A stretch of DNA of 64,000 bases, taken from assembly GCA_902790135.1 (NCBI GenBank), contig CADAQM010000012.1, positions 1 to 64,000 on the forward strand. Direction: 5' to 3'. Numbering within the stretch: the stretch's first letter is position 1; each line of letters opens with the position of its first letter. The notes beneath the pieces were generated by a model. It was not told the DNA's origin, searched no databases, and was given only the letters and a program-made list of their open reading frames with translations. Source of the stretch: an uncultured Coriobacteriaceae bacterium. Its GTDB lineage: Bacteria; Actinomycetota; Coriobacteriia; Coriobacteriales; Atopobiaceae. This document shows positions 33,495 to 36,986 of this stretch, one piece after another. The translations under genes and the position numbers were made by a program.

Positions 33495-33500
33495 TACAAT
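33495..33500 (+). promoter_or_regulatory. -10 element of the mgtE/NRAMP leader
   Basis: TGTACAAT gives a TACAAT -10 hexamer. No convincing -35 hexamer is visible at the right distance. Transcription would start near 33507, giving a leader of about 168 nt. Confidence 0.5.
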
Positions 33501-33506
33501 AGCTCA

Positions 33507-33674
33507 TTGCGTGACCATTGGGGGTCACTAATCACCAGGAGAAGGGTCTTTGATGAAGCCTCGACCTCACAGTCGATGACCCCTCGGTGCCTCGTTGGCG
33601 GTGCCGTGGGGTAACCCATAGCCCGCGGGCGGCGCTCATGCGACGCCACCCGTCCGACCAACAGAGGAGTTCGC
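33507..33674 (+). promoter_or_regulatory. Structured leader of the Mg2+-transport operon
   Basis: GGTCAC (33523-33528) can pair with GTGACC (33511-33516) just upstream. Alternatively GGGGTCA (33521-33527) can pair with TGACCCC (33577-33583), enclosing a small ORF and its ribosome site. These pairings exclude each other. A hairpin inside the ORF joins TCGAC (33561-33565) with GTCGA (33572-33576). A further stem pairs 33627-33634 with 33644-33651 (one mismatch) shortly before the mgtE ribosome site. It does not contain the conserved blocks of the M-box riboswitch. Metal- or translation-dependent control is inferred. Confidence 0.6.
33553..33579 (+). CDS. Putative leader peptide MKPRPHSR
   Basis: Eight codons: ATG AAG CCT CGA CCT CAC AGT CGA, then TGA. 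AGGAG (33537-33541) and AAGGG (33542-33546) lie 11 and 6 bases before the ATG, a better ribosome site than many genes here. Two Pro and two Arg codons are close together, and the TGA forms the first bases of TGACCCC, which is one strand of the long-range pairing. This is how Mg2+-dependent leader ORFs such as mgtL of enterobacteria are organised in principle, though the sequence is unrelated. No protein function is expected; the act of translation would be regulatory. Confidence 0.5.
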   Translation: MKPRPHSR

Positions 33675-35499
33675 ATGATCTACCTATCCCAGCTGCTGGG
33701 TAACCCCGTCTATGACAGCGATGGCGAGCGTGTCGGCCGCGTCAGCGACCTGGGCATCGCCACCGGCGAAGTCTTTCCGCGCGTCACGGCGCTCGCGGTG
33801 GAGGGTCCCGGCCGCACGCCGCTCATGATCAGCTGGCGCAAGTACGTCGACGACTTTGACGAGGATGAAGTCTCGCTCAAGGTGGTTGCCACCGACATCC
33901 GCTTCTCCTATCTCCAGCCCGACGAGGTGCTTATCGTGCGCGACCTGCTCAACAAGCAGATCGTGGACACTCGGGGTATGCGCGTGGTGCGCGTCAACGA
34001 CCTCAAGCTCTCCGACACCAGCTCGGCGCAGCTACGTCTGCTGGGTGCCGAGGTGGGCTCGCGTGGCCTGCTGCGCTCCATCTCGCCGGCGCTCGAGACG
34101 GTGGTCTGCCGCGCCGCGCGTGCGCTGGGTCATCCCATCCAGGAGCGCATCATTGCCTGGAACTACATGGACCTGCTGGAGCGCGACCTGTCCAACGTCA
34201 AGCTCTCGGTGAGCCACAAGACGCTGGACGAGCTGCACCCCGCCGACATCGCCGACATCATCGAGCGGTTGGACCCGCGCCTGCGCGGCCAGGTGTTTGC
34301 GCAGCTCGACGAGGAGATGGCGGCCGATGCCATGGCCGAGCTCGACGACGACGAGCTGGCGGCCACGCTGGTCAGCGGCATGGAGGACGCCGCGGCGTCG
34401 CGCGTGCTCTCGGAGATGGACCCCGACGACGCGGCCGAGCTGGTCTCGGAGCTCGACTACGAGCGCGCCGAGAAGCTGCTCTCGCTGATGGGCGTCAACG
34501 ATCGCGCGGCCATCAGCCAGCTGCTGGGCTACCGCGAGGATACTGCCGGCCGCATCATGACGCAGGAATTCGTGGCCATTGATGAGCGTGGTACCGTAGC
34601 CGACGCGGTGGCGGCGCTGAAAGCACTCGAGGAGGGCTTCGAGAGCGTGCGCTACGTGTACCTGGTGGACGAGGAGCGGCGCATCACTGGTGTGGTGACG
34701 CTGCTCGAGCTGCTTACCAGCGAGCCCGAGACGCCGCTTGCCACGCTTGCCACCAGCGAGCCGATCACGGCCAGCCCCGAGGACGACCAGCGAGGGCCGC
34801 CTGCTGGGCATCGTTACGGTCGACGACGCCCTGGAGGTCCTGCAGGAGGAGCACGAGGAGGACCTGCAGATTGCCGGCTCGGCCGCGGGCGTGAGCCCCG
34901 ACGACCGTGGTGGCCTGCTCTCCCAGATGCTCACCAGCGAGATGTGGTGCTTCCTGTGGGCTGTGGGCATCGCGGCCTGCTCGCTGATGTCCGGCGCCCT
35001 TGTGGGCGACTACCTGACGGGCCTGGTCGCGTCGGTCGCCCTGCCGGTGGCGCTGCGCCTGGCCGATGGTATGGCCCGCTACGCCATCAACAGCTACCTG
35101 GAGTACGACGAGGAGGACGAGGACGCCCCCACGCTGCTGGGCTTCGCCCTCAAGGGCGTGGCCGTCTCGGTGGTGATCTCGGCCGTGGTGCTGCTGGTGA
35201 TGACGGGTGTGACCAACGCGATCGACGCCTCGGTCGCATCGCACGCCTCTGCGGGGATGATCGAGCAGGAGGGTGCGATCGGCGAGCTCATGACCAGCCT
35301 GACGATGGGATTCAAGGCAGCCGCTGCGGCCGCCGTGCTCTCGTTCGTCACGGCACCGGCCTATCTGGTCACGCTGCGCCGTCGCGACAAGGCTGGTGCG
35401 GATACCAGCGGCGTTGCCCTTCGCATGGTCGCGCAGGGTGTTGCACTGGTGGTATTCGTCGCTCTGGCAAGCCTCATGCTTGCCGGGTTGGTGGGCTAG
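33675..35499 (+). pseudogene. mgtE: Magnesium transporter MgtE, frameshifted
   Basis: The first reading frame gives an N-terminal PRC-barrel region (1 to about 150), an MgtE N-domain (ELHPADIADIIERLDP, DPDDAAELVSEL) and the first CBS domain. At about 34790 the frame changes: after ITASPEDDQ the family sequence continues in the next frame as EGRLLGIVTVDDALEVLQEE, then the five-helix Mg2+ channel domain to the stop at 35499. Compared with other MgtE proteins about 20 residues of the second CBS domain are missing, so a deletion of 3n+2 bases (such as 59 or 62), rather than a single-base slip, best explains it. Translation in the first frame would end at 35549 without the channel. Either a true null allele or an assembly error. 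Confidence 0.82.
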
Positions 35500-35500
35500 C

Positions 35501-36769
35501 ATGGCCCGCCGCAAGAGCATGCGCGCGCAGGAGCGTCCCGAGCGCGTGAAGCTCGACCCTCGACGCGTGCTGGGAGCCATGGGCCCCGGCATGGTGGCGG
35601 CGCTTGCCGGTGCTGACGCCGGCGGCGTGGCTGCCTACTCGAACTCCGGCGCCCTCTATGGCTATGGCCTGCTGTGGACGGTGCCCATCATGTGCCTGCT
35701 GCTCATCGTGGCGCAGGAGACGGCGGCGCGCATGGGCTGCGTTACCGGCAAGGGGTTTGCCTCGCTCATCCGCGAGCAGTACGGCGTGCGCCTGTCCGCC
35801 CTGGCCATGCTTGCGCTGCTGATCTCGAACGCGACGGTCACGCTGTCCGAGTTCGCCGGCATCGCGTCGGGCTTGGCGCTGTTCGGCGTGCCCACCTACG
35901 TGTCGGTGCCCGTCGCCGCGCTGGCCATCTGGATGCTTACCATGAGCGGCTCGTATCGGCGCATCGAGAAGGTGCTGCTGGCCATCAGCTGCGTGTTTGT
36001 GACCTATGTGGTGGCGGGGTTCATGGTTGGTCCCGACTGGGGCCAGGCCTTTCATGACACGCTCATCCCGCCGGTCTACGGCGAGCCCAGCTACCTCTCG
36101 CTCATCGTGGCCCTGGTGGGCACCACCATCGCCCCGTGGATGATGTTCTTGGCCCAGAGCAACGTGGTCGAGCGAGATGCTCGTGAGGACGACATCCCGT
36201 ACCAGCGCATCGACACCGTGACCGGCTCGGTCGTGGCCAGCGCCATCTCGTGGTTCATCATCCTGGTGACCGGTGCGGTGCTGTACCCGGCGGGCATCGT
36301 GGTCGAGGGTGCCGAGGACGCCGCCGCCGCGCTGGCGCCGCTGGTGGGCGACTACGCCCAGGCGCTCTTTGGTGCGGGCCTGATCGGTGCGTCGTTCCTG
36401 GCGGCCTGCGTGCTGCCGGGCATCACCTCCAGCGCCATCTGCGAGGCCTTTGGCTGGGAGCGTGGCGCCGACCGCAGCTGGCAGGAGGCACCGGTCTATC
36501 GCGGCATCATCACGGCGATCCTGGCCATCTCGGCGATCATCGTGCTGCTGCCCGACGCCAACCTGTTTGGCATCATGATGGCTGCGCAGGTGATCAACGG
36601 CGTGCTGCTGCCGGTGCTGCTGGTGTTCATGGTTGGTATCGCAAGCGACCGCCACGTGATGGGACGCTACGCCAACAGCCGCCTGTGGAACATCTTCACC
36701 TGGTTCACGATCGTGGCCGTCACGGTGCTGACCATCATCATGTTCATCCTCCAGGCCCTCGGCTATTAG
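35501..36769 (+). CDS. NRAMP-family divalent cation transporter, Mg2+-transporter-like
   Basis: 422 residues with about 11 membrane helices. The metal-site motif of helix 1, normally DPGN, reads DAGG (residues 39-42), keeping the Asp. In helix 6 the usual MPH reads APW (212-214), so the metal-coordinating Met is lost. Loss of that Met and of the Asn is the pattern of the NRAMP-related magnesium transporters (NRMT), a clade that includes a characterised Eggerthella lenta protein. Mg2+ rather than Mn2+ import is therefore inferred. The ATG at 35501 begins one base after the mgtE stop. Translation may depend on coupling to mgtE, which the frameshift would disturb. Certain about NRAMP; fairly confident about Mg2+. 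Confidence 0.85.
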   Translation: MARRKSMRAQERPERVKLDPRRVLGAMGPGMVAALAGADAGGVAAYSNSGALYGYGLLWTVPIMCLLLIVAQETAARMGCVTGKGFASLIREQYGVRLSALAMLALLISNATVTLSEFAGIASGLALFGVPTYVSVPVAALAIWMLTMSGSYRRIEKVLLAISCVFVTYVVAGFMVGPDWGQAFHDTLIPPVYGEPSYLSLIVALVGTTIAPWMMFLAQSNVVERDAREDDIPYQRIDTVTGSVVASAISWFIILVTGAVLYPAGIVVEGAEDAAAALAPLVGDYAQALFGAGLIGASFLAACVLPGITSSAICEAFGWERGADRSWQEAPVYRGIITAILAISAIIVLLPDANLFGIMMAAQVINGVLLPVLLVFMVGIASDRHVMGRYANSRLWNIFTWFTIVAVTVLTIIMFILQALGY

Positions 36770-36874: not shown

Positions 36875-36986
36875 TCGAGCGCGTTGGATGGGTTCGGGTG
36901 ACGACATGTTCCGAACCTGGTCAGGGCCGGGAGGCAGCAGCCATAAGGAGCCTCTGACGGGCACCCGTTCCCATCCAGCGCGCTCG
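36875..36986 (+). ncRNA. ffs: Signal recognition particle RNA, bacterial small type
   Basis: About 112 nt. The terminal strands TCGAGCGCG (36875) and CGCGCTCGA (ending 36986) pair. The conserved core is present: GGTCAGGGCCGGGAGGCAGC (the tetraloop GGGAG-type closing region with the Ffh-binding internal loop GGTCAG ... AGCAGCC). It binds Ffh and targets nascent membrane and secreted proteins to FtsY. No Alu domain is present, as expected for the short form. Confidence 0.95.

Follow-up and report, generated by a model that had tools for sequence, protein, structure and literature searches.

A conserved leader peptide and competing RNA helices upstream of mgtE suggest a Mg2+-linked switch in Coriobacteriia

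The mgtE-NRMT operon of an uncultured Coriobacteriaceae bacterium is preceded by a leader that we read, with more confidence than doubt, as an RNA switch controlled by a leader peptide and linked to Mg2+, in which a ribosome standing at the end of the leader ORF would turn the operon off. The leader lies within positions 33495-33674 of the window (the whole 64,000-nucleotide stretch of contig CADAQM010000012.1 that was analysed), and all features described below are on the forward (+) strand. A -10-like promoter box, TACAAT (33495-33500), is recognised by its match to the consensus only; the transcript is predicted to start at ~33507, giving a leader of ~168 nt, and GTGTACAAT precedes the leader in many other Atopobiaceae loci too. 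A ribosome site evident in the sequence, AGGAGAAGGG (33537-33546), which is kept among relatives as GAGAAGG/GAGAAAGG, is followed by an eight-codon ORF identified by its conservation (33553-33579; ATG AAG CCT CGA CCT CAC AGT CGA TGA) that encodes MKPRPHSR and ends in P-x-S-x-stop. At the far end of the leader, the SD of mgtE reads GAGGAG (33664-33669, assigned from sequence). The predicted fold of the leader is only moderately better than that of shuffled sequences (z = -2.0); comparison with relatives, and not the fold alone, is what shows the leader to be real. No Rfam family matches it at E values up to 10, which bears out the first-pass annotation in that its sequence is unrelated to both the enterobacterial mgtA leader and the M-box.

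The genes downstream are those expected of a Mg2+-transport operon. The first, mgtE (33675-35499; Pfam MgtE_N, PRC and CBS), encodes a protein with an N-terminal PRC barrel; at ~34791 it lacks 59 bases that are present in two related loci (L021 and L022), so that its reading frame is broken and its C-terminal part continues in an ORF at 34738-35499. This gap is either an assembly error or the mark of a damaged gene. The second gene (35519-36769; Pfam Nramp) encodes an NRAMP-related Mg2+ transporter of the EleNRMT type, and its assignment, together with that of mgtE, supports the mgtE-NRAMP (NRMT) operon proposed earlier. The closest solved relative of the NRAMP protein is 7qia (E=1.2e-148, the next being 2e-33), which we take to be the structure of EleNRMT. 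EleNRMT is a Mg2+ transporter of Eggerthella lenta (PMC8806188). An ordinary bacterial small SRP RNA (RF00169) is located at 36885-36980, with the NRMT gene on one side and a gene for a VTT-domain protein on the other.

The leader ORF is found across the class. Named genomes were searched with the N-terminal part of MgtE, a procedure blind to the leader, which yielded 80 loci; upstream DNA was readable in 79 of them, and leader ORFs were called by reading. A short leader ORF precedes mgtE in 76 of these 79 mgtE-anchored loci, the exceptions being L095, L097 and L099, the last of which is an Atopobium mgtE. Within Atopobiaceae the peptide is MKPRPHSR* almost without exception, whereas other lineages carry recognisable variants: MKVRKxKPHSx*, starting at TTG or GTG, in Eggerthellaceae; MKSKPRPHSR* or MKPKPRPHSS*-like peptides from GTG in Coriobacteriaceae (fetched via mgtE, 12 of 12 loci read); and the six-codon leaders MTPSSP*, MRPFSQ* and MRPPSP* in the deep orders of Coriobacteriia. 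The frame is thus preserved at lengths of 6, 8, 10 and 11 codons. The end they share is P-x-S-x-stop, in which the position separating Pro from Ser varies freely; among the 122 leaders that possess P-x-S, it stands one codon ahead of the stop in 121. Some members are without P-x-S, such as Slackia, where a shorter relative (e.g. MKVRKHNNR*) has lost the motif and kept the ORF. Pro (CCT, CCC, CCG, CCA), His (CAC, CAT) and Lys codons vary synonymously while the residues are kept, and ATG, GTG and TTG starts as well as all three stops are in use among relatives. The ORF that the first-pass annotation had proposed as a leader peptide is therefore real and far above chance, and the conserved short reading frame with Pro and Arg codons that it had anticipated among relatives is present; from these comparisons we are nearly certain that this is a conserved, translated leader ORF, and we infer that it is translated in the cell.

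Pattern searches agree with this distribution. The Atopobiaceae-type pattern is present in most genomes of that family, of 298 genomes sampled from the class 56 carry the Eggerthellaceae-type pattern, and in the loci checked the matches lie 77-311 nt upstream of mgtE. Two matches away from mgtE (L156 and L180) were set aside as chance occurrences inside other genes. Elsewhere in the phylum, a strict pattern for the deep-type leader gave only 3 matches in 346 genomes, all of them in Coriobacteriia. The 16 genomes of one genus (g31) contain almost no leader pattern. In many Eggerthellaceae (e.g. L055 and L075), a tRNA gene and a terminator-like hairpin, CCGCA...TGCGG-T7, are positioned directly upstream of the leader.

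The codons of the leader are unusual. Relative to the nine genes of the window that served as the usage reference, they are little-used synonyms (CCT, 8% of Pro codons; CGA, 4% of Arg; AGT, 2% of Ser). The CGA codon is nearly fixed across leaders, and all 122 leaders use AGT for the Ser of P-x-S-x-stop (codon 7, 33571-33573), in a codon table whose Atopobiaceae part was gathered with a pattern fixing MKPRP. This invariant codon makes up ~2% of Ser codons here, and no helix needs it.

The leader can form several helices. Column-wise covariation on a gapless alignment was of no use, since the groups differ by two bases in the length of the spacer ahead of the start codon, and it was replaced by strand-swap tests, in which the duplex energy of a leader's own two strands is compared with that of its 5' strand joined to the 3' strands of other species. 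The sets were thinned at 85% identity (60 Atopobiaceae and ~27 Eggerthellaceae leaders), and the resulting p-values are not entirely free of the effect of relatedness; the deep set, with 7 leaders, is too small for such tests. P1 pairs GGGTC and TTG (33544-33552) with CGA and GACCC (33574-33582), the latter strand overlapping the leader stop codon. P2 pairs CCCC and CGGTGCC (33580-33591), starting from the first base after the stop, with GGTGCCG and GGGG (33600-33611), and in all lineages it begins at the leader stop codon. The anti-SD, CCTCGTTGG (33590-33598), sits at the tip of P2 and forms the 5' strand of P3, whose 3' strand, CCAACAGAGG (33658-33667), takes in part of the mgtE SD. Native strands were favored over swapped ones for P1 (p=3e-4 in Atopobiaceae and 5e-4 in Eggerthellaceae), P2 (p=2e-7, and p=2e-6 to 3e-6; native strands better in 28 of 28 Eggerthellaceae) and P3 (p=3e-9, and p=2e-5 to 6e-5). 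When only the five nearest relatives were used as donors, the corresponding values were p=0.01 and 0.04 for P1, 1e-4 and 3e-6 for P2, and 2e-5 and 0.003 for P3, while none of six negative-control pairings, including the same strands reversed, fell below p 0.05. For Coriobacteriaceae, a P1 at the Atopobiaceae strand position was unsupported; a strand located 5' of the leader SD gave p=0.001, its position having been picked after inspection, and this P1 changes together with the stop codon (GGGTCA/TGACCC, GGGTTA/TAACCC). On this comparative evidence, P2 and P3 have the best support of all parts of the structure, and it is highly probable that the leader forms competing, overlapping helices.

The first-pass annotation had described a different switch at this site. 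All of its letters and coordinates are correct, including GGGGTCA at 33521-33527 and TGACCCC at 33577-33583, and it had proposed that GGTCAC pairs either upstream or, as part of GGGGTCA, with the region of the ORF's stop codon. The upstream pairing holds: the 5' hairpin P0 (33511-33528), formed by GTGACC (33511-33516) and GGTCAC (33523-33528), is kept in the window's genus, where its stem is altered on both sides to give five distinct paired stems (L001, L005, L006, L007 and L009), and it is variable or absent outside the genus; in the Olsenella group, for example, there is no room for it. The alternative pairing with the stop region does not hold, as native strands gave -4.42 kcal/mol versus -4.66 kcal/mol for swapped ones (p=0.99, n=60 Atopobiaceae). 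We therefore rejected 33521-33527 as the partner of the stop region, its conserved partner being 33544-33552. The covarying pairs that had been expected among Olsenella, Collinsella-family and Atopobium relatives were found for other helices and not for the one named, and the two larger helices, P2 and P3, had been missed. The broader idea that translation of the ORF should decide between alternative RNA folds is supported, by way of these other helices.

To follow the consequences of ribosome position, the RNA was truncated at the 3' end of P2 and folded with a mask of 27 nt about the P-site, which served as a proxy for co-transcriptional folding. With the ribosome on early codons, the probability of P2 is ~0.8-0.9 in all four lineages, whereas with the P-site at the final codons or the stop it is near zero in the same four. 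When no ribosome is present, P2 reaches 0.7-0.9 and P1 ~0.2; for the leader of the window itself, the predicted P1 is weak (0.03). In the full RNA, accessibility of the mgtE SD with P2 enforced versus a ribosome on the stop was 0.56 and 0.34, 0.53 and 0.26, and 0.45 and 0.25 in three lineages, and in the seven deep leaders it was independent of P2. Masking a ribosome at each codon in the full-length equilibrium fold altered SD access only weakly on average. Since P2 costs 6-7 kcal/mol relative to the free full-length ensemble, it would have to act kinetically, during RNA synthesis. That ribosome position governs P2, and P2 the access to the SD, is thus a computed prediction, whereas the ORF, the helices P1, P2 and P3, and the stop at the foot of P2 are drawn from comparison.

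These results are assembled into the following model. The leader ORF would be translated, with P2 competing with P3 and P1 competing with P2. Ribosomes at the last codons, P-x-S-x-stop, would cover the 5' half of P2; with P2 masked, the anti-SD would pair with the mgtE SD to form P3, and little mgtE would be translated (OFF). Conversely, slow translation on the early rare Pro and Arg codons, or loss of the ribosome there, as would be expected at low Mg2+ by analogy with mgtL and corL, may hold the ribosome back or remove it early, so that P2 would form during transcription and capture the anti-SD, leaving the mgtE SD open (ON). That the leader controls mgtE through the mgtE SD we consider likely. 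The polarity, in which a ribosome at the leader end represses and one held back or lost early activates, we infer at what amounts to an even chance.

A link to Mg2+ is suggested by the genomic context. The M-box (RF00380) has no match in the window, in the leader (E up to 10) or in the window's genome, which nevertheless retains the leader. Among 19 loci scanned, an M-box lies upstream of mgtE in 9, all of the deep group, and in a survey of the class it was found in 56 of 218 genomes, all but two of them outside the window's order. The two M-box-bearing Coriobacteriales genomes are G272 and G283. Where an M-box accompanies a PRC-type mgtE, a leader ORF is positioned between the two in 24 of 26 loci; M-box-mgtE loci that have no recognisable leader are L232 and L243. 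The tandem arrangement of M-box and leader in deep relatives, and the Mg2+ transporters encoded downstream, point indirectly to Mg2+ as the signal, and it is somewhat probable that Mg2+ is what the leader reads.

Other explanations share parts of this evidence. The leader ORF could act on transcription, its translation exposing or hiding a Rho loading site, with SD pairing being secondary. The mgtL/mgtA and corL/corA systems operate in this manner, the Mycobacterium M-box leader likewise uses Rho, and the alternative helices described here could gate a Rho site; yet P3 pairs with the SD itself, and in two families no other helix has so strong a compensatory signal, which would be superfluous for termination control, and the spacers of 50-200 nt show no conserved pyrimidine stretches by eye, so that we regard a Rho-based output as unlikely. 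It is also rather unlikely that the switch is controlled by translation and senses, in place of Mg2+, overall translational status or how well particular aminoacyl-tRNAs (Pro, Arg, Ser) are supplied. The rare CCT, CGA and AGT codons, the last of them invariant, are what such a sensor might use, but the element always stands ahead of a Mg2+ transporter gene and, in deep relatives, behind an M-box.

Two further readings deny the ORF its role as a ribosome-based input. Silent sites are strongly conserved (AGT in every leader, CGA nearly fixed), which would suit an element that senses an ion or metabolite through RNA only, the ORF being incidental. This we consider improbable, as the Pro, His and Lys codons change synonymously with their residues kept, the starts and stops interchange while the ribosome site is kept, the frame survives at four different lengths, and there is no conserved unpaired core besides the ORF. 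Conservation at the peptide level could instead reflect a short peptide that works in trans, for example on the transporter, as has been proposed for Rv1805A, a longer peptide linked to an M-box; however, peptides of 6-11 residues that differ greatly between lineages save for the last four positions, and that are always encoded in cis directly before mgtE with the stop at P2, make this very hard to credit. The Mg2+-linked switch acting at the mgtE SD accordingly remains our preferred reading.

The candidate switch resembles several known systems and belongs to none that we found. In mgtL and corL, efficient translation of the leader lowers transporter expression (PMC11282234, PMC11552253). As in mgtL/mgtA of Salmonella and E. 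coli, a short Pro-containing leader ORF with alternative hairpins precedes a Mg2+ transporter gene; unlike it, the window's leader is from another phylum, would control mgtE, and has its output predicted at the SD and not at Rho, and it bears neither an Rfam nor a sequence relation to the enterobacterial mgtA leader. Near its start, mgtL contains an acidic EPDP motif that destabilises ribosomes, whereas MKPRPHSR and its relatives contain Pro and no acidic residue, with the single exception of a D in one leader (L091). The corL/corA system of the same two species similarly has a leader ORF within alternative hairpins and translation that is inverse to transporter expression, but its output is Rho-dependent and its sequence and gene are unrelated. 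The M-box shares the target gene and lies directly upstream of the leader in deep Coriobacteriia, and the leader is nonetheless a separate element, the aptamer being absent from the window and its genome. In context, the nearest described case is the M-box with the uORF Rv1805A in Mycobacterium. In M. tuberculosis, the pe20 M-box is followed by short ORFs, including the uORF rv1805A, and an anti-SD sequesters an SD (PMC12810186); Rv1805A is reported to be specific to mycobacteria and to be the regulated ORF, with the M-box as input (PMC12810186). Both systems come from Actinomycetota and have short ORFs after an M-box, here in the deep relatives, with an anti-SD that can sequester an SD, but the uORF is regulated there and would be the input here.

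Translational attenuators of the ermC type use a leader ORF and competing hairpins to block or release the SD of the gene that follows. The leader shares this architecture: comparison supports a conserved, translated leader ORF, and the strand-swap results for P1, P2 and P3 support mutually exclusive helices, one of which hides the downstream SD. It differs in that there is no drug-dependent stall and no resistance gene, and in that the stop lies right against the releasing hairpin, from which a ribosome at the end of the ORF would be expected to repress and not induce. The logic is therefore like that of mgtL and corL and the output like that of a translational attenuator, and the leader belongs to neither of these two enterobacterial families. 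No description of such an mgtE leader in Eggerthella or Coriobacteriia was found in the open-access literature, in keeping with the earlier suggestion of an undescribed element of Coriobacteriia.

In enterobacteria, mgtL and corL are known examples of leader peptides by which the ribosome reads Mg2+. If the model is true, the leader would represent an independent, sequence-unrelated origin of ribosome-based Mg2+ control across a class of Actinomycetota. As some lineages of the class carry it downstream of an M-box and others carry it alone, it would also offer a rare view of one RNA sensor giving way to another at the same gene. More tentatively, P-x-S-x-stop with its fixed rare AGU could be a new (termination-)pausing peptide through which the ribosome senses Mg2+ in Actinomycetota, and may have arisen downstream of an M-box and replaced the M-box lost from mgtE in Coriobacteriales. 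The motif with its invariant rare Ser codon offers a compact, testable peptide for work on translation pausing. The leader occurs in the common gut genera Collinsella, Eggerthella and Olsenella, and across their whole class of gut and environmental bacteria it is probably where the ribosome stands on this tiny ORF that determines whether the transporter is produced.
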